Source of the DNA: Streptomonospora litoralis | GTDB taxonomy: Bacteria; Actinomycetota; Actinomycetes; Streptosporangiales; Streptosporangiaceae | Assembly (NCBI RefSeq): GCF_004323735.1 | Contig: NZ_CP036455.1 | Span: forward strand, 5,575,101 to 5,639,100 | Length of the DNA: 64,000 nucleotides | Reading direction: 5' to 3' | Shown here: positions 11,422 to 63,852 of the stretch, piece by piece | Numbering within the stretch: position 1 is the first letter of the stretch | How the letters are laid out: the number at the start of each line of letters is the position of its first letter | Notes under the pieces: model-generated | What the model was told of the DNA's origin: nothing | Databases searched by the model: none | What the model saw: the letters and a program-made list of their open reading frames with translations, nothing else | Translations under genes and position numbers: made by a program

Positions 11422-11439
11422 ATCATTCTGTGCAATGAT
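11422..11439. promoter_or_regulatory. Inverted repeat ATCATT-N6-AATGAT before the PKS
   Basis: Six-base arms flank CTGTGC. The first possible ATG of the PKS frame (11435) lies inside the right arm and lacks a good ribosome site, so the repeat is better read as an operator and the TTG at 11507 as the start. Confidence 0.4.
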
Positions 11440-11506
11440 CTCGTCGCTTTGTGTAACCGAAATTGCCCGGCGCGTCGTCCGCGCCGGGACGCGGGAGAGG
11501 ACGAGC

Positions 11507-14500
11507 TTGGGCGCAGTAACGGATGATCGCGGGACGGACGCGGTCGCGGTGGTCGGCGTGGGGTGCCGGCTGCCGGGAGGCATCGACGATCTGGGCTCCC
11601 TGTGGGAGGCCCTCGACGAGGGCCGCGACCTGGTGGGGCGCGTGCCGGAGGACCGCTTCGAGAGCGCGCGGTTCGTGGACGAATCGCGCCCGCGGACGGG
11701 CAAGAGCTACACCGCGGCGGGCGGCTTCCTCACCGACGTCGCCGGATTCGACGCCGACTTCTTCGGTATCTCGCCGAAGGAGGCCGCACACATGGACCCC
11801 CAGCATCGGCTGCTGCTGGAGATGACCGCCGAAGCGCTGGACGACGCCGCCATCGACCCCGCCCGCCTGGCGGGGACTCCCTCGGGCGTCTTCGTGGGTA
11901 TCTCCGACGCCTCCTACGGCGCGCTGCAAATGATGTCACGCGATCGGATCGGCCCCTACACCGCCTCGGGCGGTGCCCATTCGATCGCGGCGAACCGCGT
12001 CTCGCACGCGTTCGACCTGCGAGGACCGTCCATGGCCGTGGACACGGCCTGCTCCTCATCGCTGGTCGCGCTGGAACGGGCCTGCTGCCAGGTGGCGTCC
12101 TGCGGCGGCGTGGTGCTGGCCGGCGGCGTGAACGTGCTGCTCGCACCCTACGCCTATGTCGCCTTCGCGCAGGCGGCCATGCTCTCGGCCAAGGGCCGCT
12201 GTGCGGCGTTCTCCGCGGACGCGGACGGCTTCGTGCGCTCCGAGGGCGGCGGGGTGGTCGTGCTCAAACGGCTGGGCGACGCACTGGCCGACGGCGATCG
12301 GATCCACGGCGTGCTCGCCGGATGGGGCTCCAACAGCGACGGCCGCACCGCCGGGCTCGCACTGCCCAACTCCGATGCGCAGGAGGAACTGCTGCACAGG
12401 GTCTACGCCGACGCCGGTGTGGAGCCCGACGAACTGGTGTACATGGAGGCGCACGGCACCGGCACGCTCGTCGGGGACCCCGCCGAGTGCGAGGCCGTCG
12501 GCCGGGCGCTGGCACGCGGGCGCTCCCGCCCGCTGCCGGTCGGCTCGGTCAAGTCCAACGTCGGCCACCTGGAGCCCGCCTCGGGGATGGCCGGCGTGTT
12601 CAAAGCCCTGACGGTGCTGCGGCACGGGCGTATCCCGGCATCGCTGCACGCCGCACCCCTCAACCCCCGCATCGACTTCGACGGCCTCGGACTGGCCCCC
12701 GCTGTCGAGGCGAGCGACGTCCGACCGCTCGTCGCGGAACGCCGCGCCGTCGGCGTCAACTCCTTCGGATTCGGCGGAGCCAACGCCCACGTCATCGTGG
12801 CCGCCGCGCCCGAGCCCGCTGGGCGGGGCGCGGACGCCGACGGGGGGCCTCGGGAGCGCGCCGCCGCGACGCGGTCGGCGGTCGCCGCGGCCGCCCCGTC
12901 CGGCAGCGGCGCGGCGCGCGGCGCCGCGCCCGAGCAGGAGGGGCCCGCTTCACTGCCCGTCGTCGTCTCGGCGCGCACGCCCGAGGCCCTCACGGCGGCG
13001 GTCGCGCAGATGGCGGAGTGGCTGGACGAGACTCCCGGCGACGCCTTCTACGACCTCGCCTACACCTCCTGCAGGCGGCGCGGCGCGCACCCGTACCGGC
13101 GGGCCGTGCTGGCCGGCGGCCCGCACCAGGCGGCGGAGCGGCTGCGCGCCGACGGAGCCGGTTCCTCGCCGACCGCCGAGGACGGTCGTATCGCCTTCGT
13201 CTACTGCGGCAACGGTTCCCAGTGGGCCGGTATGGGCGCCGACCTGCTCGCCGCCGACGCGGACTTCGCGCGGAGCGTGGCCGAGGTCGACGGCTGCCTC
13301 GCCCCCTATCTCGGCTGGTCGGTGGCCGAGGAGATGGCGCTTCCGCCCGCCGAGTGGCGACTGCAGCTGACCGAGGTCGCCCAGCCCCTGCTGTTCACCG
13401 TCCAGGTAGCCCTCACGCGCTGGCTCGCCGACCGCGGCGCCACCCCCGCCGCCGCGGTGGGGCACAGCGTCGGCGAAGCCGCCGCGGCCTGGGCCGCCGG
13501 GGCGCTTACCCTCGACCAGGCCGCGCGCGTGGTCGCCGCCCGCGGCCGAGCGCAGGCGCCCACCGCCGGCAGCGGCCGCATGGCCGCGGCCGGCCTCTCC
13601 CGCGAACAGGCGGAGGAGCTGCTGACCGGATTCCCGGGGGTGGAGATCGCCGGGGTGAACAGCGAGTGCGACGTCACCCTCGCCGGTTCCGAAGGCCGCA
13701 TCAAGCAGATCGGCGACGAGCTGGAGCGGCGCGGTGTGTTCTTCCGGCAACTCGACCTGGACTACGCCTTCCACAGCTCGGCCATGGACCCGGTGCGCGA
13801 AACCCTGCTCGCCGACCTGGACGGGCTCACACCTTGCGCGGCCCGCATCCCGCTGGCCTCCACCGCTACGGGCGGCCTGGTGGAGGGCACGGAACTCGGC
13901 GCCGAGCACTGGTGGACGGGAATCCGCGAACCCGTCATGTTCGGAGCGGCCGCCGACCGGCTGCGCGACAGCGGCATCGGCGTGTTCACCGAGATCGGGC
14001 CGCACCCCGTGCTGCGGTCCTACCTGCGCCGCTGCCTCGATTCACCGGCGCGGCGCCGCGCCGTGACCTCGACACTCGACCGCGGCGGCTGCGGCGTGCG
14101 GGCCGCCAAGCGGGCGGTGGAGTCGCTGATCGCCGCCGGCGCCGACATCGACTGGGCGCGGCGCTACTTCCCCGCGCCGGGCCAGGTCGTCGACCTGCCC
14201 GCGTACCCATGGCAGCGCGAGCGCCACTGGAGCGGCACGAGGGAGGACTGGGCGCGTGCGAGCGCCGGTCCGGTCGACCATCCGCTGCTGGGCGAACGCG
14301 CCGTCGCGGCCGAGCCGTCGTGGACGGCCGCGGTCGAGCCGGTGCGCGCGCCGTGGCTGGTCGACCACAAGCTCGCCGGAGGCGTGGTCTTCCCGGCGGC
14401 CGGCTATCTGGAGATGGCGCTGGGGGCGGGCAGGCGCGTACTGGACGGACCGGTGGAGGCCGACGGCTGGGAGTTCACCAGGCCGCTGGTGATCCCGTGG

Positions 14501-17500
14501 GAGGACCCCGAAGCGGTGCGCATGCAGACACTGCTGACTCCGCAGGACGGAGCCACCCGCATCACCAGTGTCGAGCGCGGCGGCGCCGAGCCCCGCCTGC
14601 ACGCCCGCGGCCGGGTGCGGCGACTGGTCCAAGGCGTCCCCGCACCGCTGGACGTGGCCGCCGCGCGCTCGCGGTGCCCGCAGCACATCGACGCGGGCCG
14701 ACTGTACGCGGAGCTTGCGGAGAAGGGCTTGCAGTACGGCCCCGCGTTCCAGGTTCTGCGCGAGGTGTACAGCGGCGAGGGCGAGGTTCTCGCCGCTTAC
14801 CGACTCGACGCCTCCTCCGAGGAGTACACCGTCCACCCTGCCCTGCTGGACGGTGCGTTCCACAGCGGGGCGCCGCTGCTGGTGGGCCACGAAGAAGGCG
14901 CCTTCCTCCCGGCCAAGGCGGGTGCGCTGCGCGTCTGGCGGACTCCCGCGCCGCAGGGCTGGATCCGCGTGCTCGACCGCACCCGGAGCAGTAGCGAATC
15001 CTGCTGGGACATCGTCCTCACCGACGAGCGCGGCGACGTCGCCGTCGAAGCCCTGGGCCTGCGGTGCAGGCGCGTCGCCTCCCACACGCGGCGCCCGTTG
15101 GAGACGCACCGCACCGTGCTGCGCGCGGCTCCGCGCGCCGGGCTCGCGGCGGCGCCCTCACCGCTGCCGCAGAACGACCGCATCGAGGCGGCAGCGGCCG
15201 ACCGCATCGACCGGGTGCGCCGGGCGTGGCACGAGACCGACTACGACGACGCCGCCGCCAGTCGCCGGGACAGCCTCGGACACGCGATCGCACTGGGGCT
15301 GGCCCGGTTGGTGCCCAAGCTCCGCAGCGGCGAGGCCGGGTGGGCCGACGTCGACGCGCTTGGACTGCCCGCCGCGTACCGCCGGGCGGTCGCGGCGATG
15401 ATCCCGCTCGCGGAGGCGGCCGGCGCACTGCAGAAGACGGGGGAGTCCACATGGCGGCTGGCGACCGATGACGAGCGCGCCCGCGCGGCGTTTCGCACCT
15501 GCCTCGACAGCGCCCCGGCCTCCGCGGTCGAACTCTGCCTCGCCGCCATCGGCCTGGGGAGAATGCCGTCGGTGATGCTGGGCGAGCGCGAAGCCGTCGA
15601 GATGCTGACCGAGCCCGGTACTGCAGAGCTCTACCGGCACCTGTTCGCCACGAGTCCGCAACTGGTCTTCGGCTACCGGGTGGCGGCCGCGCTGCTGGCC
15701 GCGGCCGTCGAAGAGTGGCCGGCCGACCGGCCGCTGCGCGTACTGGAGATCGGCGCCGGAACAGCCGGATTCTCGACCGCTCTCGTTCCCCTGCTGCCGC
15801 CCGACCGCACGCAGTACACGTTCACCGACGTCTCCCCGTTCTTCTTCGCTCCCGCGCAGAAGCAGCTGGCCGAGTACGACTTCGTCGAGTACCGCACACT
15901 CGATCTCGACGCCGACCCGGCGGAGCAGGGGTTCACTGAAGGCGAATACGACCTCGTCGTCGCCGCCAACGCCCTGCACACGGCCCGCGAGATGGCCGCG
16001 GCGCTGCCGCGCGTCGCCTCCCTGCTGTCCCCGGGCGGCCGGCTGCTCGCGGTCGAGAACCACGACAACGACGCCGCCAGCGGGGTATTCGGGCTACTGG
16101 AGTCGTTCTGGAACTCGGCCGACACCGACCTGCGCCCCGACGGCGCCTTCATCGCCCGCGACCGGTGGCCCGGGCTGCTGCGCCGCGGCGGATTCGGCGA
16201 CGTGGTGCAGACCGGCGACGACCGGGGGGCGTCCGCGCGCGACCTGTCGGTGCTGCTGGCGACCGCGGAGCACCGCGCCGCGGGGCCGGTCCCCGCGGTA
16301 CCGGCCCCGGCCGAACCTCAGGAGCCGGAGGTCGTCCGCGTGGTGGTCGCGGAATCCGCCGCCGAGCTTCCGCTGGCCCAGGCCGTGGCCGAGGCGTGCG
16401 ACGACGCCGCGGTCGCAGTCGCTGCGGACGGCACCGCCCAGTGGGCCGACTTGCCGGCAGCCCCGGTGCACGGCCGGCACTCCGTCACCATCGTCTATGC
16501 CGAGCCGGACCCCGACGACGTGGTCGCCGCGACCACGCGCCGCGCCGCCATGCTGCGTTCGCTGCTGGGTGCCGCGCTGCCGCACGACGAGTCGCGGCAG
16601 CTCGACCTGAGGCTGGTCACCCGGCCCAGCGGTGTGCACCCGGCGCCGGAAGGGTGCGACGTGCCCGCCGACGCCGCGGTGTGGGGGATGGCGCGGACGC
16701 TGGCCAACGAGTACGGCGAAATCGCGCTGACCCGCATCAGCCTGCAGCGCGGCGCCGACATCACAGCGGACGCCCGGCGCCTGGCCCGCGAGGTCCTCTC
16801 GGACTCCCCCGAGGACGAGATCGTGCTGACGTCCGAGGGACGGTTCGTGCCGCGGATGGTCGCGGACACCCCGGCGCTGGACGCCGCCGAGTCCGGGGGC
16901 TACGGCCTGGTCGTCCTCGATCAGGGGCTGAACTTCCGCGTGCAGTGGGAGCAGACGCCCCCTCCGGTGCCGGGCCCCGGCATGGTCGGTATCGAGGTGC
17001 GCGCCGCGGCGCTGAACTACCGCGACGTCATGCAGGCGACCGGCCTGCTGCCGGCCGAGGCCGCGGAGTCCAGCTTCGCTGGGATGGAGCCGGGGCTGGA
17101 GTGTGCGGGCGTCGTCACGGCCGTGGGGGCCGGGGTCGACGGACTCGCGGTGGGCGACCGGGTACTCGCTACGGCGGCGCCGGCGCTCGCGTCCCACACC
17201 GTCACCCACGCCCACGCCGCGGCGCGCATCCCCGAGCACATGTCCTTCGCCGAAGCCGCCACTGTGCCGATCGCCTTCACCACCGTCCAGTATTCGCTGG
17301 AGGAGGTGGCCCGTCTGCGCAGGGGCGAGACCGTGCTCGTGCACGGCGGCGCCGGGGCGGTGGGGCTCGCCGCGCTGCAGCACGCCCGCATGTGCGGCGC
17401 CGAGGTGATCGCGACCGCCGGGACCGAGGCCAAGCGCGAGGTCCTGCGGGTACTCGGCGTCGAGCACGTGCTGGATTCGCGCAGCTTGGAGTTCGCCTCC

Positions 17501-19051
17501 GAGGTGATGGAGCTGACCGGTGGGCGGGGGGTCGACGTCGTCCTCAACTCTCTGGCGGGCGAGGCCCTGACCCGCAGCCTGGAGGTGCTCGCGCCCGGCG
17601 GACGATTCGTCGAACTGGGCAAGCGCGACATCATGGAGAACGGTGCGCTGCCGCTGCGGCCGTTCGCCGACAACATCAGCTTCTCCGCGGTCGACCTGAG
17701 TTCGATGCTCGGCAAGGAGGTGCTCGCCGAGCACTGGGCGCGGGTCGTGCGGCGGCTGCGCGACGGCGTCTACCGCCCGCTGCCGCATACCGTGTTCCCG
17801 GCCTCGCAGGTGCAGAACGCGTTCGCGATGCTCCAGCACTCGCGGCACATCGGGAAGGTCGTCGTCGCGATCGACGGCCTGAGCGCGCCCGGGACCGTGC
17901 GGGCCGCGCGGTACGGCGCGCCGCCTGTGCCGGACGGCGAGGGCACCTACCTCGTCACCGGAGGTCTGAGCGGGCTCGGCGCGGCGACAGCCCGGCACCT
18001 GGCCGGACAGGGTGCGCGCCACCTGGCCCTGGTCTCGCGCCGCGGCGGGCAGGCCCCCGAAGCAGCGGCGCTGCTGGCCGACCTGGCCGACCAGGGCGTC
18101 ACCGCGACCGCCTACGCGGCCGACTGCGCCGACCCCGCCGCGATGGACGCGGTGTTCCGGTCGATCCGGACCGGCGGACACCCGCTGCGCGGTGTGGTGC
18201 ACGCCGCCATGGCACTGGACGACGACGACTTCGCCGACCTGACCGACGAACGCTTCGCCACCTCCCTCCGGCCGAAGATGGGCGGCCTCGCGGTCGTCGA
18301 CGCAGCCACCCGCGGCATGGACCTGGACCTGTTCTGGGTCTACTCCTCGATCTCGGCCCACGTCGGCAACGTTCGCCAGTCCAGCTACAACGCCGCCAAC
18401 CTGTACACCGAGGCGGTGGTCCGCAACCGGCGCCGACGCGGGGAGGCCGGCGTCGCGGTGGCGTGGGGGCGCATCGACGGCACCGGCTATGTCGAGCGCA
18501 GCGGAATGGGCGACCTCCTGAGCAAGCTGGGTCTCGACCCGGTCCCCGCGACCGAGGCGCTCGCGACCATCGACCTCCTCCACCGCCACGCCGACCGCTG
18601 GGAGGTGGCCGGCGTGTCCAGGCTCGACTGGGGCCGACTCCGCTTGACGGTGCCGGCCACCGCGCACTCCGCTCGGATGAGCCGCATCCCCGGGGTGGTC
18701 GGTGGCGAAGGCGCTGCGGCCCGCCAGGAACTGATCGCCAGGCTGCGCACACTGGAGACCGAGGAGGCGCGCGAGATTCTCGCCGCGCACCTGGCGGAGG
18801 CTTTGGCGGAGGTCCTGCAGACCGACGCCGGGCGGTTGGACCACCACAGGCGGCTGGACGAGTACGGAGTCGACTCGTTGATGGCCGCCGACCTGCTCAC
18901 GACGATCAACGAGAACTACCGGCTGGAGATCTCACCGCTGGAGATGATGCGCAGCGGCGGAACCATCTCCGACATCGCCGACACCATCCTGCTGCGCATC
19001 GGCGCGGGAGGGACCGGAGAAGCGGGCACGGCACAAGCCGCCGAGTCCTAG
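11507..19051 (+). CDS. Highly reducing iterative type I polyketide synthase, KS-AT-DH-MT-ER-KR-ACP
   Basis: This is a 2,514-aa stand-alone PKS, numbered from TTG 11507 (GGGAGAGG 6 bp upstream; ATG 11435 is an alternative). KS has D-T-A-C-S-S with Cys182 plus the two His motifs. AT has G-H-S-V-G-E with Ser654 and Y-A-F-H, between malonyl HAFH and methylmalonyl YASH. DH has D-H-K-L-A-G-G-V-V-F-P with His954 and H-P-A-L-L-D. MT has L-E-I-G-A-G-T-A-G near 1415. ER has H-G-G-A-G-A-V-G near 1945. KR has T-G-G-L-S-G-L-G near 2150, a B-type L-D-D and Y-N-A-A-N. ACP has G-V-D-S-L with Ser2457. No thioesterase is present. This domain order matches fungal HR-PKSs such as LovF. The product is probably a reduced, C-methylated acyl chain, released by an enzyme not seen here. 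Confidence 0.93.
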   Translation: MGAVTDDRGTDAVAVVGVGCRLPGGIDDLGSLWEALDEGRDLVGRVPEDRFESARFVDESRPRTGKSYTAAGGFLTDVAGFDADFFGISPKEAAHMDPQHRLLLEMTAEALDDAAIDPARLAGTPSGVFVGISDASYGALQMMSRDRIGPYTASGGAHSIAANRVSHAFDLRGPSMAVDTACSSSLVALERACCQVASCGGVVLAGGVNVLLAPYAYVAFAQAAMLSAKGRCAAFSADADGFVRSEGGGVVVLKRLGDALADGDRIHGVLAGWGSNSDGRTAGLALPNSDAQEELLHRVYADAGVEPDELVYMEAHGTGTLVGDPAECEAVGRALARGRSRPLPVGSVKSNVGHLEPASGMAGVFKALTVLRHGRIPASLHAAPLNPRIDFDGLGLAPAVEASDVRPLVAERRAVGVNSFGFGGANAHVIVAAAPEPAGRGADADGGPRERAAATRSAVAAAAPSGSGAARGAAPEQEGPASLPVVVSARTPEALTAAVAQMAEWLDETPGDAFYDLAYTSCRRRGAHPYRRAVLAGGPHQAAERLRADGAGSSPTAEDGRIAFVYCGNGSQWAGMGADLLAADADFARSVAEVDGCLAPYLGWSVAEEMALPPAEWRLQLTEVAQPLLFTVQVALTRWLADRGATPAAAVGHSVGEAAAAWAAGALTLDQAARVVAARGRAQAPTAGSGRMAAAGLSREQAEELLTGFPGVEIAGVNSECDVTLAGSEGRIKQIGDELERRGVFFRQLDLDYAFHSSAMDPVRETLLADLDGLTPCAARIPLASTATGGLVEGTELGAEHWWTGIREPVMFGAAADRLRDSGIGVFTEIGPHPVLRSYLRRCLDSPARRRAVTSTLDRGGCGVRAAKRAVESLIAAGADIDWARRYFPAPGQVVDLPAYPWQRERHWSGTREDWARASAGPVDHPLLGERAVAAEPSWTAAVEPVRAPWLVDHKLAGGVVFPAAGYLEMALGAGRRVLDGPVEADGWEFTRPLVIPWEDPEAVRMQTLLTPQDGATRITSVERGGAEPRLHARGRVRRLVQGVPAPLDVAAARSRCPQHIDAGRLYAELAEKGLQYGPAFQVLREVYSGEGEVLAAYRLDASSEEYTVHPALLDGAFHSGAPLLVGHEEGAFLPAKAGALRVWRTPAPQGWIRVLDRTRSSSESCWDIVLTDERGDVAVEALGLRCRRVASHTRRPLETHRTVLRAAPRAGLAAAPSPLPQNDRIEAAAADRIDRVRRAWHETDYDDAAASRRDSLGHAIALGLARLVPKLRSGEAGWADVDALGLPAAYRRAVAAMIPLAEAAGALQKTGESTWRLATDDERARAAFRTCLDSAPASAVELCLAAIGLGRMPSVMLGEREAVEMLTEPGTAELYRHLFATSPQLVFGYRVAAALLAAAVEEWPADRPLRVLEIGAGTAGFSTALVPLLPPDRTQYTFTDVSPFFFAPAQKQLAEYDFVEYRTLDLDADPAEQGFTEGEYDLVVAANALHTAREMAAALPRVASLLSPGGRLLAVENHDNDAASGVFGLLESFWNSADTDLRPDGAFIARDRWPGLLRRGGFGDVVQTGDDRGASARDLSVLLATAEHRAAGPVPAVPAPAEPQEPEVVRVVVAESAAELPLAQAVAEACDDAAVAVAADGTAQWADLPAAPVHGRHSVTIVYAEPDPDDVVAATTRRAAMLRSLLGAALPHDESRQLDLRLVTRPSGVHPAPEGCDVPADAAVWGMARTLANEYGEIALTRISLQRGADITADARRLAREVLSDSPEDEIVLTSEGRFVPRMVADTPALDAAESGGYGLVVLDQGLNFRVQWEQTPPPVPGPGMVGIEVRAAALNYRDVMQATGLLPAEAAESSFAGMEPGLECAGVVTAVGAGVDGLAVGDRVLATAAPALASHTVTHAHAAARIPEHMSFAEAATVPIAFTTVQYSLEEVARLRRGETVLVHGGAGAVGLAALQHARMCGAEVIATAGTEAKREVLRVLGVEHVLDSRSLEFASEVMELTGGRGVDVVLNSLAGEALTRSLEVLAPGGRFVELGKRDIMENGALPLRPFADNISFSAVDLSSMLGKEVLAEHWARVVRRLRDGVYRPLPHTVFPASQVQNAFAMLQHSRHIGKVVVAIDGLSAPGTVRAARYGAPPVPDGEGTYLVTGGLSGLGAATARHLAGQGARHLALVSRRGGQAPEAAALLADLADQGVTATAYAADCADPAAMDAVFRSIRTGGHPLRGVVHAAMALDDDDFADLTDERFATSLRPKMGGLAVVDAATRGMDLDLFWVYSSISAHVGNVRQSSYNAANLYTEAVVRNRRRRGEAGVAVAWGRIDGTGYVERSGMGDLLSKLGLDPVPATEALATIDLLHRHADRWEVAGVSRLDWGRLRLTVPATAHSARMSRIPGVVGGEGAAARQELIARLRTLETEEAREILAAHLAEALAEVLQTDAGRLDHHRRLDEYGVDSLMAADLLTTINENYRLEISPLEMMRSGGTISDIADTILLRIGAGGTGEAGTAQAAES

Positions 19052-30513: not shown

Positions 30514-30559
30514 CGGGCCGACCGACCGACAAGCGGCACCGAAGACCCCGTAGGGCCGG

Positions 30560-31140
30560 GCCTGCGGTCGACGGTCCGGGTGCCGGCCGGTGGGCCGCCC
30601 GCGGGACGGCAGCGGTTCACTGGACGGCCTTCTGGCCTCCCGGGCGGCGGGTGGTCTTCACTGGAATGCAGCGGCGACGGTGGCAGCAAGGTCCGACCCG
30701 CGGGTATCGGTTCGGATGCTGGCCGGTGGCAGCGGCCGACGAGGGGCGGTGGTGGGCCGTACCGGAGGCGGCAGCGCCCGCTCTTTAGGGTGCGGCTGCA
30801 CTCGTCCAACGCGTGGAAATCACCAGATCCGGGCCGTTCTTTGGCGATAACCACGCGTTCGGTGAGGCCGCCAGGGCGGCGGGACGGACATCTGGGCGGA
30901 TTCGGCGCGGCTCTCCCGAGTACCGTGAACTTATGGCTAAGGAAAGGGTTTTCCGATGACCATAAGTTCACGTAGACGCCGAATGACCCGGCAGTTCGGA
31001 CATATCGGCGCCGGGCCGCCGTCGCACACGCCACCGCTCGCGGACAGAACCGGCGCCCGCACCTCCGCCGACCGCCGCCACCGGCGGGAACACGGTGCGG
31101 TGGGCGCGGGCCGGGCCATCCACCGCCCCCGGCCTGATGC
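30560..31140. repeat. Intergenic composite repeat, locus R2
   Basis: The left part (30630-30740) carries a family unit recognisable by GGGCGGCGGGTGGTCTTC and ATGCAGCGGCGACGGTGG. The centre has two hairpins: 9-bp arms at 30808-30816/30851-30859 (similar to the R1 core around GTTCTTTGG) and the conserved core at 30924-30972. The right part (31070-31130) has an opposing unit similar to that in R1. No gene is credible here. Confidence 0.7.
30924..30972. ncRNA. Conserved core hairpin, copy A (possible structured RNA or recombination site)
   Basis: Arms CGTGAACTTATGG and CCATAAGTTCACG are perfect over 13 bp (30924-30936, 30960-30972), with an inner GGAAA/TTTCC stem. About 100 bp around it aligns with copies at 44.4 and 60.9 kb. 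Whether it acts as DNA or RNA is unknown, and transcription is not shown. Confidence 0.5.
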
Positions 31141-43898: not shown

Positions 43899-44342
43899 GG
43901 CTCGCTCCTCGTTGTGGACGACGCGGAAGCTGTCGTTGCGCGTCGGCTACCCGGGGGTTCAGGGCGGAAACGGGTCCGCACCCGTCGCCGCCTGCTCGAA
44001 CGCCGCCCCCTCCGACCAGCGCGGCCGCGCCCCGGCCGCGGCGGCGGCGGGGTCGGGCCCGCGGTTATCGGTTCGGGTGCTCGCCGGTGGCGGCGGCCAG
44101 CGGGGGTCGGGTCCGCTGGGCGGCCTTGCTGGTCTGCCGGGAACGGGTGGTCCTCCGGAAAAGCGGCACCGAGGGCGGCGGTGGGCTGCCCCCGCGGTCA
44201 TCGAGTCGGGTGCCCGCCGGTGACGCGCCCGACGGGGCGGCGTTGGGCCGCCGCAGGCCGGTCGGCGCATCAAACGCGCGGTTGTCACCGAATTCCGGCC
44301 GCTGTCCGGTCGAAACCCTGCGTTGGGCGGCACCGGTCCCAT

Positions 44343-44398
44343 CGAGTCTGTCTCTGGGGCTGGATTCGGCGCCGAATCCAGCCCCAGAGACAGACTCG
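44343..44398. repeat. Perfect 56-bp palindrome
   Basis: Bases 44343-44370 are the exact reverse complement of 44371-44398, with no spacer (centre TCGGCGCCGA). It sits 14 bp before the conserved hairpin of R3. The matching place in R4 lacks it: there the flanks GGCCGCCGTAG and ACTCGGCGCGG are directly joined. So it belongs to an extra segment in R3 or a segment lost from R4. Confidence 0.9.
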
Positions 44399-44411
44399 GC
44401 GCGGCTTGGCC

Positions 44412-44474
44412 CGTCTATCGTGAACTTATGGTCGCAGGAAAGTGCATTCCGCGGCCATAAGTTCACGATAGACG
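44412..44474. ncRNA. Conserved core hairpin, copy B
   Basis: Perfect 20-bp arms (44412-44431 and 44455-44474) are followed inward by a further 4 pairs including one G-T, then GGAA/TTCC, leaving a 6-nt loop. Nearly the whole 63 nt can pair. Flanks GACTCGGCGCGGCTTG and GCCGGAAGAACCGGCAT are shared with copy C. Function unknown. Confidence 0.6.
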
Positions 44475-45322
44475 CCGGAAGAACCGGCATCGGACGCCGC
44501 CACCGGCGGGCACCCGAACCGATGGGCACGGGCGCCACCACCCACCGTCCTCGCCGCCCCGCCGGACGGGCCACCGCCGAGCACCCGACCCGTCAACCGC
44601 AGGCCCAACCATCCGCCACCGTCGCCGCCGCATTTCCGTAAGACCACCCGCCACCCGGCAGACCAACAAGGCCGCCCAGCAGACCCGACCCGCCCCGCCG
44701 GACGCGCCACCGCCGAGCACCCGAACCGGTGACCGCAGGCCCAACCATCCGCCACCGTCGCCGCCGCATTTCCGTAAGACCACCCGCCACCCGGCAGACC
44801 AACAAGGCCGCCCAGCAGACCCGACCCGCCCCGCCGGACGCGCCACCGGCGAGCACGCGAACCGGTGACCGCGGGCCCAGCCCTTCGCCGTCCTCGGTGC
44901 CCGCCGTTCCCCGTCGAACAACCCGCCGCCCGGCAGACCACAAGACCGCCCAGTGAAGCTCCGCCGCCCCGCCGCACGGCGCAACCCGCGAGCCCTCGCC
45001 CGCGCCGTGGTGACTATGCTGTCGCGAAAGCCGACAAACCGACCGCCCGCCGGTGCCGGGGATCCGTCGACCGGCCCCGCGGACTCGCCCTCCCCCGCTG
45101 CTCCGCGCGCGGACGCGGCACCGTCGTCAGCGGCCACGGCGGTGCACCAGCCCCGCACCCCTCTTGAGCGGGAACGGCGCCGAACACCGACCGCCCCGCC
45201 GCACGCTCGCGCTCACAGTACGCGCGGCCCACCGTGGCCGTCTGGTCACGTGAATGAGATGCGACTCTGCCAGACTCGCGTGGGTTCAGTGCTGTGTGCC
45301 CTGATACGGGAGTTGAGACCTG

Positions 45323-60263: not shown

Positions 60264-60581
60264 ATGCCGGCGAACGACACCCTGTTCGACGACTTCATCC
60301 ACGTCCGGCCGCGGCTGGCGATCCTGGTCCGCCTCGCCCGTGCGGGCTGGGTCGAGTTCACCCAGGTACGGGAAAGCGTCGGCTGCAGCGAGTCCGCGCT
60401 GTCCAAACAGGTCAGTGCGCTCCAGGCGGCGGGCTACGCCGAGGTGTGCAAGATGACCCGGCGCCACCGCCGCCGCACCTGGATCCGGTTGACCCGGGAA
60501 GGCAGCGCGGCACTGATGCGCCACGTCGACGCGCTGGAACTCCTCACCGCCCAGGTGCGCGGCCCCCGGCCGCCACGATGA
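60264..60581 (+). CDS. Winged-helix (MarR-like, PF13601) regulator
   Basis: This 105-aa one-domain DNA-binding protein contains V-E-F-T-Q-V-R-E-S-V-G-C-S-E-S-A-L-S-K-Q-V-S-A-L-Q-A-A-G split by normal turns, and a basic wing R-R-H-R-R-R-T-W-I-R-L-T. It is the same type as the regulator at 35341-35688. ATG 60264 has GGGGAGG before it. Its target is not apparent; the composite repeat R4 begins right after it. Confidence 0.85.
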   Translation: MPANDTLFDDFIHVRPRLAILVRLARAGWVEFTQVRESVGCSESALSKQVSALQAAGYAEVCKMTRRHRRRTWIRLTREGSAALMRHVDALELLTAQVRGPRPPR

Positions 60582-60602: not shown

Positions 60603-61590
60603 CCTAAGCCGTGTTCATGAACGCCGGTCTGCTGTGAAACCGCGGGGTGACGCCCGCTTTCAACGGGCCGCGGGGTGACGCCCGCTCCCAACGGGCAGGG
60701 TGCTCGCCGGTGGCGGCGCGTGGCGGAGGGGCGGCTCGGGTCCGCTGGGCGGCCTTGTTGGTCTGCCGGGCAGCGGGTCGTTTGCCGGGGAACGACGGGC
60801 GGCGAGGACGGCGGTGGGTCCGGCCCGCGGTCGACGGGCCGGGTGCTCGCCGGTGGCGCGCCCGGCGGGGGCGGCGTTCGGCCGCCGTAGACTCGGCGCG
60901 GCTTGACCCGTCTATCGCGAACTTATAGTCGCAGGTAAGCGTATTCCGCGGCCATAAGTTCGCGATCATCGCCGGATGGACCGGCATAGGGGACCTACCG
61001 GCGCCGGCGGGCCGGCTGGGTGTCGCCGTGCCCCCTACCGGGCCCGCACAGGGTGGAGGCAGCGCGGCGGGGCGCGGTCGCGGGCGCCCGCACGCCGACA
61101 CCCCGATCACCGCAGGCCCGGCCCCGCCGGCGCCGTCGCCGCCCCGCCGCGCGCGCCACCGCCGAGCACCCGAACCGATGGGCGCAGGCCCAGCCATCCG
61201 CCGCCCTCGCTGCGGCTTTCCGGTGAAGACCACCCGCCGCCCGGCAGACCGACAAGACCGCGCAGCGGACCCGACCCGCCCCGCCGGACGGGCCACCGCC
61301 GAGCCACCGAACCGATGGGCGCAGGCCCAACCATCCGCCACCGTCGCCGCCGCATTTCCGTAAGACCACCCGCCACCCGGCAGACCGACAAGACCGCGCA
61401 GCGGACCCGACCCGCCCCGCCGGACGGGCCACCGCCGAGCCACCGAACCGATGGGCGCAGGCCCAACCATCCGCCACCGTCGCCGCCGCATTTCCGTAAG
61501 ACCACCCGCCGCCCGGCAGACCGACAAGACCCGGCAACTCCCATTAGGCCGCGCAGACGGGCGTTCTTAAATACGGCCCTAGCGCCGGAC
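60603..61590. repeat. Intergenic composite repeat, locus R4 (best-bounded copy)
   Basis: The left end at 60603-60635 (TAAGCCGTGTTCATGAACGC, then CGGTCTGC) is the inverted counterpart of the right end at 61550-61587 (GTTCTTAAATACGGCCCTAG). One forward unit with GGCGGCCTTGTTGGTCTGCC lies at about 60745. The core hairpin follows, then three opposing units (GGCAGACCGACAAGACCGCG) repeating every 136 bp, for example CATTTCCGTAAGACC at 61353 and 61489. A 307-codon minus-strand frame crosses the array but is a repeat artefact. Total length is just under 1 kb. Confidence 0.85.
60914..60966. ncRNA. Conserved core hairpin, copy C
   Basis: ATCGCGAACTTAT (60914-60926) pairs with ATAAGTTCGCGAT (60954-60966). 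Relative to copy B the T-A pair (44421/44465) is a C-G pair here (60918/60962), so both sides changed together. One mismatch (A60927/C60953) is followed by further pairing. This compensatory change argues that base pairing itself is maintained. Confidence 0.6.
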
Positions 61591-61698: not shown

Positions 61699-61854
61699 CG
61701 AAATCTAGCTCGAAACTATCGGGGAACAGCATCCGCGACATCACTCCCGCATGGCGTTCGCTCACGCACCCTCCGCCAGTTCGCGGTTAAGGGACTGTCA
61801 CTGCGCTTGGTTTCGGACAGTCCTCATCCCGCCTCCTCGTCCCGATAGTTTCGA
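61699..61854. promoter_or_regulatory. CGAAA-type repeats upstream of the xylanase
   Basis: TCGAAACTATCGGG (61710-61723) has an exact inverted copy at 61841-61854. Further CGAAA/TTTCG words lie at 61699 and 61811, and GGACTGTC/GACAGTCC forms an inverted repeat at 61792-61823. CGAAA elements have been described upstream of actinomycete xylanase genes. The region 61640-61980 is notably less GC-rich than its surroundings. Confidence 0.6.
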
Positions 61855-61978
61855 ATTTCACTCCGACAGCGAATGAAATGCCTGGTGTGAGACTCACGTC
61901 CGCAGCATGTGCAGATAGGTCCGTAATTTGTTCTTCACGAGCTGTCGTAGACGGTGTTACGTTCATCACGCTCATGAG

Positions 61979-61992
61979 CGGGAGCGCTCCCG
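61979..61992. promoter_or_regulatory. CelR-type box CGGGAGCGCTCCCG before the xylanase
   Basis: This 14-bp perfect palindrome shares the GGGAGCGCTCCC core with the boxes at 32755 and 58448 and lies 55 bp before the xylanase start. Confidence 0.85.
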
Positions 61993-62047
61993 TTTTCATG
62001 ATTCCCACGATTCCAATCCCCCGGATCGCGCACCTGGAGGTGCTGCA

Positions 62048-63511
62048 GTGAGACTCGCAATACGCGGGAGTCGCGAGACCCCCCGCCGCAGCCGGGCGAG
62101 CCGTGCCCGGCGGCTGACCGGTGCGGCGCTCGCGACGTTTCTCGGCGCGGCGGTACTGGCTCCGGCCGCCCCCGCCGCCGCCGACTCTCCGCTCCGTGAC
62201 CACGCCGCTCAGCAGGGTTTCGAGATCGGCGCGGCGCTGGGCGCCGACCATCTGCAGAACGACAGCCAGTTCGCCGACCTGGCGGCCACCGAGTTCAACG
62301 CCTCGACGCCCGAGAACTCCATGAAGTGGTCCGTCACCGAGCCGTCCCGCGGCCAGTTCGACTTCAGCCAGGCCGACGCGTACATGGACTTCGCCCAGGC
62401 GAACAACCAGAAGGTGCGCGGCCACACGCTGGTGTGGCACAGCCAGCTGCCGTCCTGGGTGGAGAACGGCAACTTCAGCGAGAGCGAGCTGCTCTCGATC
62501 ATGGAGAACCACATCGACGAGGTGGCCGGCCGCTACGCCGGTGAGATCGCCTACTGGGACGTCGCCAACGAGATCTTCCTGGGCGACGGTTCCTGGCGGA
62601 ACTCGGTCTTCTACGAGACGATCGGCCCGGACTTCGTGGCCGAGGCGCTGCGTATGGCCGCCGAGGCCGACCCCAGCGCCGAGCTGTGGCTGAACGACTA
62701 CAGCATCGACGGGATCAACGCCAAGAGCGACGCGTACTACAACCTGATCCAGGACCTGCTGGCCCAGGGCGTCCCGATCGACGGCATCGGCCTGCAGGCG
62801 CACCTGATCAACGGCCAGGTGCCCAGCAGCCTGCAGCAGAACATCCAGCGCTTCGCCGACCTCGGCATCGACGTCGCGATCACCGAGCTGGACGTCCGCA
62901 TCCAGATGCCCGCCAGCGACAGCGAACTGCAGCAGCAGGCGCAGGACTACCGCGCGGTGATGGACGCCTGCCTGGCGGTGGACGGCTGCATCGGCGTGAC
63001 CGTGTGGGGCATCGTCGACAAGTACTCCTGGGTGCCCGACACCTTCGAGGGCGAGGGCGCTCCGCTGCTCTACAACGACAACTACCAGCCCAAGCCGGCC
63101 TACGACGCCGTCCACGCGGCCCTGGGCGGGCAGAACGACGACGGCGACGACGGCGATGACGGGGACGACGATCCGCCGCCCGACCCCTCGGGTCCCTGCG
63201 CGGTCTCCTACTCCGTGGCCAACGAGTGGAACAGCGGGTTCACCGGCCAGCTGACCTTCACCAACAACGGCAGCTCCGCGCTGAACGGCTGGGACCTGCA
63301 GTTCGACTTCGCCGACGGCCAGCAGGTCAACAACGGATGGTCCGCCGAGTGGTCGCAGTCCGGATCCACCGTGACCGTGTCCAACGCCTCGTGGAACGCG
63401 TCCGTTCCGGCCGGCGGCTCGGTGAGCGTCGGGTTCAACGCCACGCACAGCGGCGCCAACTCCGAGCCGGACTCCTTCACCCTCAACGGACAGTCCTGCA
63501 GCGTCTCCTGA
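62048..63511 (+). CDS. Secreted GH10 endo-beta-1,4-xylanase with C-terminal CBM2
   Basis: This 487-aa enzyme has a signal peptide of about 45 residues (arginine-rich start, cleavage near A-P-A-A-A). The GH10 barrel (about 46-375) has W-D-V-A-N-E with acid/base Glu175 and I-T-E-L-D with nucleophile Glu280, plus R-G-H-T-L-V-W-H. A Gly/Asp-rich acidic linker and P-P-P-D-P precede a CBM2 domain (C-A-V-S-Y to the final C-S-V-S). It cuts xylan with retention. GTG start has GGAGG at -8. Control is likely by the CelR box and CGAAA elements. Confidence 0.95.
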   Translation: MRLAIRGSRETPRRSRASRARRLTGAALATFLGAAVLAPAAPAAADSPLRDHAAQQGFEIGAALGADHLQNDSQFADLAATEFNASTPENSMKWSVTEPSRGQFDFSQADAYMDFAQANNQKVRGHTLVWHSQLPSWVENGNFSESELLSIMENHIDEVAGRYAGEIAYWDVANEIFLGDGSWRNSVFYETIGPDFVAEALRMAAEADPSAELWLNDYSIDGINAKSDAYYNLIQDLLAQGVPIDGIGLQAHLINGQVPSSLQQNIQRFADLGIDVAITELDVRIQMPASDSELQQQAQDYRAVMDACLAVDGCIGVTVWGIVDKYSWVPDTFEGEGAPLLYNDNYQPKPAYDAVHAALGGQNDDGDDGDDGDDDPPPDPSGPCAVSYSVANEWNSGFTGQLTFTNNGSSALNGWDLQFDFADGQQVNNGWSAEWSQSGSTVTVSNASWNASVPAGGSVSVGFNATHSGANSEPDSFTLNGQSCSVS

Positions 63512-63629
63512 TTCCGGCAACCACCCTTCCCGGAGCCTCCGGGCCCCGGCCGGACGCCACAGGCACCGGCCGGGGAGGGTGACCGCCGGACCGGCCGGAC
63601 CGCATCCCCCATTCCGGCCAGTCCGGCCC

Positions 63630-63657
63630 GGCCCCCGCCGCGACCGCGGTGGGGGCC
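63630..63657 (+). terminator. Terminator downstream of the xylanase
   Basis: A 13-bp GC stem with one G-T pair and a tiny loop (63630-63642 with 63645-63657), followed by GTTTCG. It lies 120 bp after the xylanase stop. Confidence 0.7.
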
Positions 63658-63852
63658 GTTTCGCGTCCTGGCGCCGCAAGGCCGGGGACCGGTCCCGTCC
63701 GGTGCCGGGACCGCACAGCGCAGCGCAGTCGCCTCCGCAGGCGGCAGCGAGCCGGACGGATCGCGGCGCTCGGGCAGCTGGTTTCATGGGTCGGGACACC
63801 GGGGCGTCTAAGGGCCCTGAGGTGAAGAACCCGAGGTCGCGATGGGGGAACC

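Follow-up and report, generated by a model that had tools for sequence, protein, structure and literature searches.

A family of repeats with a foldback body and IS5-type ends in Streptomonospora litoralis, probably a non-autonomous transposable element

The repeat R4, located in an intergenic part of a 64,000-nucleotide stretch of the Streptomonospora litoralis chromosome (the window), is probably a copy of a non-autonomous transposable element that has a foldback body and was mobilised in trans by an IS5-type transposase. The architecture of the element, its ends, its target preference, its absence from congeners, and the presence in a congener of an insertion sequence (IS) with matching ends and targets are known from the analysis. 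From these we infer that the element owes its movement to a transposase of this kind, a helper that is either gone from the present genome or was missed in it.

Structure of R4 and related loci in the window

R4 occupies positions 60607-61578 between two terminal repeats, both of type A (see below); these limits follow from the repeat structure and from the lack of an element at the orthologous place in three congeners (G001, G004 and G005). The 15-bp repeat at the left end (AGCCGTGTTCATGAA, 60607-60621, plus strand) differs at two positions from the family end RGCCGTGTTTAAGAA and is preceded by TA at 60605-60606. The repeat at the right end (61564-61578, minus strand; GGCCGTATTTAAGAA when read inward) differs at one position and is followed by a single additional C at 61579 and by TA at 61580-61581. 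The unit profile places two units that point right on the plus strand, at 60672-60781 and 60798-60917. A remnant of the conserved centre follows at 60889-61096 (plus strand), identified by BLAST in the same genome (query positions 287-494) with 84-97% identity to many other copies; most of the centre is missing from R4, as it is from several other copies. The central hairpin HP1 (ATCGCGAACTTAT / ATAAGTTCGCGAT) lies at 60913-60967 (plus strand). The right arm, on the minus strand, is made of units that point left: a partial unit 1 at 61138-61220 and unit 2 at 61226-61358 (both from the unit profile), unit 3 at 61362-61494 (repeat structure and unit profile), which is 99% identical to unit 2, and a further partial unit at 61498-61536, found as direct repeat D2. 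Over 74 nt the opposing arms are 81% complementary.

A 39-nt stretch occurs three times on the right side of R4, at spacings of 136 and 136. The exact 136-bp period that a sequence-only reading had described for three right-hand units in both R4 and R3 therefore holds in R4, but not in R3, where the copies at 44654, 44790 and 44929 are spaced by 136 and 139. Coding repeats were considered and rejected, since a period of 136 is not divisible by three and the open reading frames within R1-R4 match no protein family (eight without a Pfam family, six without a PHROGs family); the same searches agree with the earlier observation that these loci contain no transposase. R4 is flanked by a winged-helix gene at 60264-60581 (PF13601) and, at 61928-63511, by a GH10 gene that also encodes a cellulose-binding domain. 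Between R4 and the GH10 gene an inverted repeat, TCGAAACTATCGG / CCGATAGTTTCGA, is located at 61710-61722 and 61842-61854; we take it to resemble a putative operator of this gene. Sequence like CCGAAACTATCGG is found again in congeners at the place orthologous to this gap.

The three other loci in the window are, like R4 as a whole, assigned to neither strand. R1 (1402-1799) has one left unit, two right units and a right terminal repeat at 1785-1799; HP1 is absent and no left end was found. R2 (30529-31131) consists of two left units, a diverged HP1 at 30921-30975 and one right unit, and R3 (44040-44998) of two left units, the palindrome HP2 (44344-44397, 54 bp, arms without mismatch), HP1 at 44416-44470 and five right-unit matches; no terminal repeats were found in either. 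The claim that R1-R4 share the same modules is correct for the units, which are present in all four, but not for GGTCTGCCGGG, which is absent from R2 when one mismatch is allowed, nor for the hairpin, which R1 lacks. The units of R2 fit the family profile despite the absence of GGTCTGCCGGG. Across the window, GGTCTGCCGGG (at most one mismatch) occurs 22 times, compared to a mean of 6.1 in shuffled sequences, and the end motif (at most three mismatches) four times, compared to a mean of 0.08. Three of the end-motif matches recover the terminal repeats that had been noticed at both ends of R4 and at the right end of R1; the fourth, at 16105, lies within a 2538-aa open reading frame (11435-19051).

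Family census

A BLAST search of the whole genome gave 315 matches to R4, and the family is far larger than the window shows. The unit profile, which was built from the family, maps 394 unit matches in 97 clusters on the chromosome. These come from 92 sources chosen by a match to the hairpin, the unit or the end, including 72 stretches around hairpins or unit matches and 19 around further ends; at least two of them (L073 and L167) give two clusters each, perhaps from one split element, and the first cluster of L102 is cut by the edge of its stretch. Together the clusters cover 82.6 kb of the 5.81-Mb genome, or about 1.4%. The inversion of units across the centre, noted earlier for the window and visible in the opposing arms of R4, is general: left units point rightward and right units leftward in 68 of the 68 clusters that have both arms, the other 29 of the 97 being one arm or a hairpin only and thus uninformative on layout. 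The exact hairpin AACTTAT-N-ATAAGTT occurs 65 times in this genome and is absent from the 119 other genomes that were examined. A plasmid- or virus-borne element was rejected as an explanation: positions 60700-61300 have no match in the plasmid collection, the exact hairpin pattern has none in the viral contigs, and the unit search finds none on the 90-kb second contig of this genome.

Two individual loci deserve mention. One copy (L164:2011-2817) lies between near-identical flanks, each with what appears to be the same tRNA gene. At L165:2069-2160 a 648-aa open reading frame stops at TGA, which is directly followed by GTCGTGTTTAAGAACGCC and then by a different module; a similar module is present in R2 at about 30805-30870.

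Terminal repeats and target sites

Ends were sought in 93 sources, and 67 were found. They are 15-bp inverted repeats, RGCCGTGTTTAAGAA, that adjoin TA, and their consensus is C-TA-R-GCCGTGTTTAAGAA: read from the outside inward, the 67 ends have C in 50, T in 60, A in 56 and A or G in 63, followed by GCCGTGTTTAAGAA with few changes. There are two types of ends, A and B, whose first 14 bases are the same. The orientation of the hairpin relative to the ends is the same in 10 of the 12 copies that combine a hairpin with one end of each type, the exceptions being L050 and L063. Two-ended copies (n = 18) span 428 to 1841 bp.

IS5-family subgroups vary in the length of the target duplication, which is TA for some of them. 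With the A or G counted as the first base of the element, 13 of the 18 two-ended copies, to which R4 does not belong, have identical outer dinucleotides at their two ends (12 TA and 1 TG; mean of 9.6 on shuffling, P = 0.010). This test is modest because almost every site is TA, and five of the 18 copies have no repeat; the TG copy at L046 is the most telling, because congeners have a single TGA at that place. A duplication of 3 or 4 bp with the element starting at GCC was rejected, as it is found in 0 and 2 of the 18 copies, no better than shuffling. CTAG is contained in 7 of the 13 rebuilt target sites. A published account gives the IS5 target-duplication motif as YTAR (PMC10359306); sites of this form are scarce in the window, with 51 in 64 kb compared to about 320 expected from the base composition.

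Some ends lie directly behind genes. An open reading frame that spans 80 codons or more and has a gene-like composition at its third positions ends near the element at 25 of the 41 ends examined, and in 11 of these 25 the stop codon directly adjoins the GCC of the element; by comparison, 4 of the 51 YTAR sites in the window coincide with stops of gene-like reading frames. Under the 2-bp model, the final base of the abutting stop codon is the first base (A or G) of the element. We read the excess of stop codons as the result of a TA-type target together with the loss of insertions that break genes; a targeting of stop codons as such is less favoured.

Sites lacking the element in congeners

Five congeners were searched with eleven joined flank pieces, and 20 stretches from three of them (G001, G004 and G005) were compared. 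Both flanks could be aligned at six sites. The comparison of insertion sites suggested by the sequence-only reading, made here between species, reveals that at five of the six (R4, L046, L063, L087 and L089) the element is missing in all 13 comparisons made with G001, G004 or G005, and that 34 to 287 bp separate the aligned flanks. At the sixth, L079, the congeners instead contain 1.7-2.4 kb of different sequence, in which gene-like frames occur. A single flank aligned at L088, at L037 and in one comparison for L089 (L185). The unit and centre profiles of this genome have no match in the 20 congener stretches. The centre profile of a family found in G004 (see below) has one weak match (E 0.003), in L184, which falls in the gap that G001 has at L089; this site holds about 225 bp and does not count as cleanly empty. 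In the congeners the stop codon of the gene keeps its position at L046 and L087, and it is at this stop codon that the element starts.

The absence of the element from congeners could reflect loss instead of gain. One might also assume that the repeats are old and static, and that they spread solely through recombination or gene conversion among existing copies. The divergence between copies (units of different elements are 73% identical) and the failure to find a helper in this genome fit this assumption; however, repeats of this kind would not be expected to be missing at five orthologous sites or to have precise ends at a constant motif, and we consider the explanation very unlikely.

A candidate helper of the IS5 family

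A candidate for an autonomous relative that shares the ends, for which the earlier reading had suggested a search, is found in congener G005, beside an IS701-type match. It is an IS of 1032 bp with the 14-mer GCCCTGTTTAAGAA at both ends, its end reading CTAG-GCCCTGTTTAAGAA. Such ends are present on six copies in G005, of which one measures 1031 bp and has a single changed base at one of its ends. CTAG lies on both sides of five copies, and the remaining copy has TTAG and CTAG (CTAG at 11 of 12 ends). The family end RGCCGTGTTTAAGAA and the IS end GGCCCTGTTTAAGAA differ by one base, and 9 of the 67 ends of this genome have the IS's own base at that position. The first 268 residues of the IS protein are recognised as an IS5-family transposase (NF033580, 218.9 bits with a cut-off of 110; PF13340 and PF01609). 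A related IS from a Rhodococcus plasmid has the ends GGC(A/G)TGTTTCAAAAG and CTAG on both sides; in the other three of the four plasmid-borne relatives that were opened, a simple search gave no clear ends. In G002 a related IS5-type transposase is represented by 36 matches in two series (L226-L248), as if split across two reading frames.

A search of the present genome (G000) with the G005 transposase returned no matches. Three PF01609 proteins are encoded in it, whose copies end in CCAGGGGTGATTCAAAGTCG, unrelated to the family ends. An IS701-type helper was rejected, as the single such gene in this genome lacks matching ends. Beyond the terminal 15 bases, the 60-base ends of element and IS have no significant likeness (inner-part P 0.058 to 0.86); the putative link between helper and family is one of ends and target, not of interior sequence. 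The proposal that R4 is a non-autonomous mobile element, already made from the window, nevertheless gains from several sides: copies are dispersed, orthologous sites in congeners lack the element, the ends mark an insertion boundary with a repeated dinucleotide, and a congener has an IS with nearly the same ends.

Relatives of the body

Congener G004 has its own family with a centre of 0.9 kb (137 matches in G004, 52 in G001, 34 in G005, 5 in G002 and 1 in G003). With the unit profile of the present genome, matches to about the initial 76 bp of the unit are obtained in G004 loci, where the layout is again opposing (best E 1.4e-13); in G003, one locus yields a weak pair of opposing units (E 0.002 and 0.003). 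The centres of the two families have one short stretch in common (best E 2.5e-4), and HP2 has a counterpart with changed arms in the G004 family (52 of 73 bases, E 5e-5). No IS5-type ends were found where eight G004 copies reach their outer limits; near-matches surround only a segment inside the centre. This segment of about 280 bp (L131:2162-2440 and other copies) is bounded by GCCGTGTCTCAGAA and GTCGTGTTCAAGGA, which are similar to the terminal repeats of the present family. The body may predate its link to IS5-type ends.

A stand-alone hairpin of the form GAACTTATGG-N23-CCATAAGTTC, which agrees with HP1 in its arm ends and in the length of its middle, was found at 20 loci, 19 of which belong to Catellatospora, a distant genus, where it occupies intergenic-looking places (L111-L130 except L129). 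Hairpins of this kind, together with the high copy number, the extragenic position and the palindromes, would be in line with REP/BIME-like sequences moved by a tyrosine (RAYT) transposase; REPs, REPINs and BIMEs are likewise extragenic palindromic repeats, with mosaic arrangements and a presumed mobilisation in trans (PMC3733652). However, the 15-bp terminal inverted repeats and the target are shared with a DDE-type IS and indicate a partner of this type, not a tyrosine transposase, and units of 136 bp are much larger than the 20-40 bp given for REPs in the same source. We regard this origin as highly improbable.

Folding of the body and a possible function

An alternative explanation is that the body is a functional structure, such as a structured RNA or, behind genes, a terminator or insulator, with transposition merely its means of spread. 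Part of the evidence agrees with this. The single-stranded DNA fold of 60724-61286 reaches -237.9 kcal/mol, compared to -182.0 +/- 5.4 for shuffled sequences (z -10.3; 0 of 100 as low). In 40 of the 69 copies that bear the 55-nt hairpin HP1 a longer centre can be aligned, and its consensus contains many short inverted repeats and long runs that are at least 95% identical. Changes between copies of HP2, a 54-bp palindrome, are mirrored in the opposite arm: the 22 copies found, 14 of them without arm mismatch, have 25 mismatches in total, and none of 10,000 reshufflings of the arms gave a number as low. Pair 5 of HP1 leans to one strand in its wobbles (T.G 17 versus C.A 3), and pair 16 is T.G in 58 of 69 copies.

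The gene context points in the same direction. Neighbouring genes at 80 determined sites are convergent in 37 cases, tandem in 38 and divergent in 5, with 17 undetermined, whereas 98 background pairs from 90 of the 92 sources comprise 25 convergent, 62 tandem and 11 divergent; both counts come from a codon-position heuristic that may pick an antisense frame; beside R4 the frame at 61787-63799 (minus strand) has no Pfam family, and the one at 61928-63511 (plus strand) is the GH10 gene.

Other observations speak against a functional body. Full-length units of the same arm are 84% identical on average (49 pairs), whereas units from opposite arms of one element (0.733; 45 pairs) are no more alike than units from different elements (0.731; 4757 pairs). 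The former value suggests that units multiply locally inside an arm; the latter reveals nothing that keeps the arms complementary, as if the arms drift independently, which argues against a role for the long foldback. Outside pairs 5 and 16, HP1 has no general strand bias (11 cells of the T.G type versus 14 of the C.A type), and the aligned centre folds well on both strands (-427 kcal/mol with HP1 forward versus -397 kcal/mol). A known structured RNA was rejected: in R4, Rfam gives three matches, all below the gathering score, and in five other loci it gives only a tRNA, in L094. A large folded DNA or RNA element of an unfamiliar kind, the second option of the sequence-only reading, may still apply to the inner body. 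Finally, the same gene pairs exist in congeners without the element. On balance, we consider a primary function of the body unlikely, though less so than the two alternatives discussed above.

Discussion

We continue to prefer a transposable element that depends on a helper. A complete element is bounded by terminal inverted repeats of 15 bp (RGCCGTGTTTAAGAA), as a rule one sub-end of type A and one of type B, and has a body of inward-pointing tandem units of about 136 bp around a centre of about 700 bp that is rich in short inverted repeats. Working in trans, a transposase of the IS5 family (NF033580 / IS5_3) would recognise the terminal repeats and insert the element at the TA inside YTAR-like sites, foremost CTAG, with the TA repeated. 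In a genome with 72% GC such sites are scarce, and some of them are stop codons. On insertion into the TA of TAA or TAG, the leading A or G of the element would rebuild the stop codon, so that the gene would keep its end. Units would afterwards be gained or lost locally inside an arm.

Among known systems, the G005 IS (IS5_3 type, NF033580) has the same terminal repeat except for one changed base, a CTAG-like target and a repeated outer TA, but it is 1.03 kb long and encodes a transposase, whereas the element has none and an interior that is not significantly IS-like. With MITEs the family has in common the lack of a transposase, short terminal inverted repeats, a target duplication and many copies. 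Typical MITEs, however, are a few hundred bp long, whereas the two-ended copies of this family span 428 to 1841 bp and combine tandem arrays with a complex centre. Nor does the interior appear to be a deleted parent IS, the classical MITE trait, when the 60-base ends are compared. Long inverted arms of tandem sub-repeats, the foldback trait, are present in every two-armed cluster. Nearest in shape is Galileo, a foldback-like element of Drosophila, which also has long inverted arms and whose arms, in one copy from D. willistoni, are described as carrying direct tandem repeats of about 140 bp (PMC4168063). Galileo is eukaryotic and belongs to the P superfamily; the likeness is one of shape, and no sequence relation is expected. 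We rate the element as a member of the MITE/foldback kind, a variant with an unusual foldback body. Among the matches listed for open-licence papers, no title or abstract opening describes such a bacterial foldback family or these repeats, a weak absence.

A bolder and rather doubtful extension would see in the family a bacterial counterpart of Foldback, in which the inward arms and co-varying palindromes are functional and not cargo. During replication or transposition a strand would fold into a giant hairpin, copying from arm to arm would renew the palindromes, and insertion at the TA of a stop codon that is then rebuilt would make this a safe-site transposon whose insertions also place a folded barrier after genes.

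About 1.4% of this genome consists of a type of element that gene-based annotation would not name, and the family joins a foldback architecture, known from eukaryotic transposons, with bacterial IS5-type ends. The rebuilding of stop codons would provide a simple and testable reason why the element could reside without harm exactly at the ends of genes. As the candidate helper IS survives in a congener, mobilisation in trans is directly testable.
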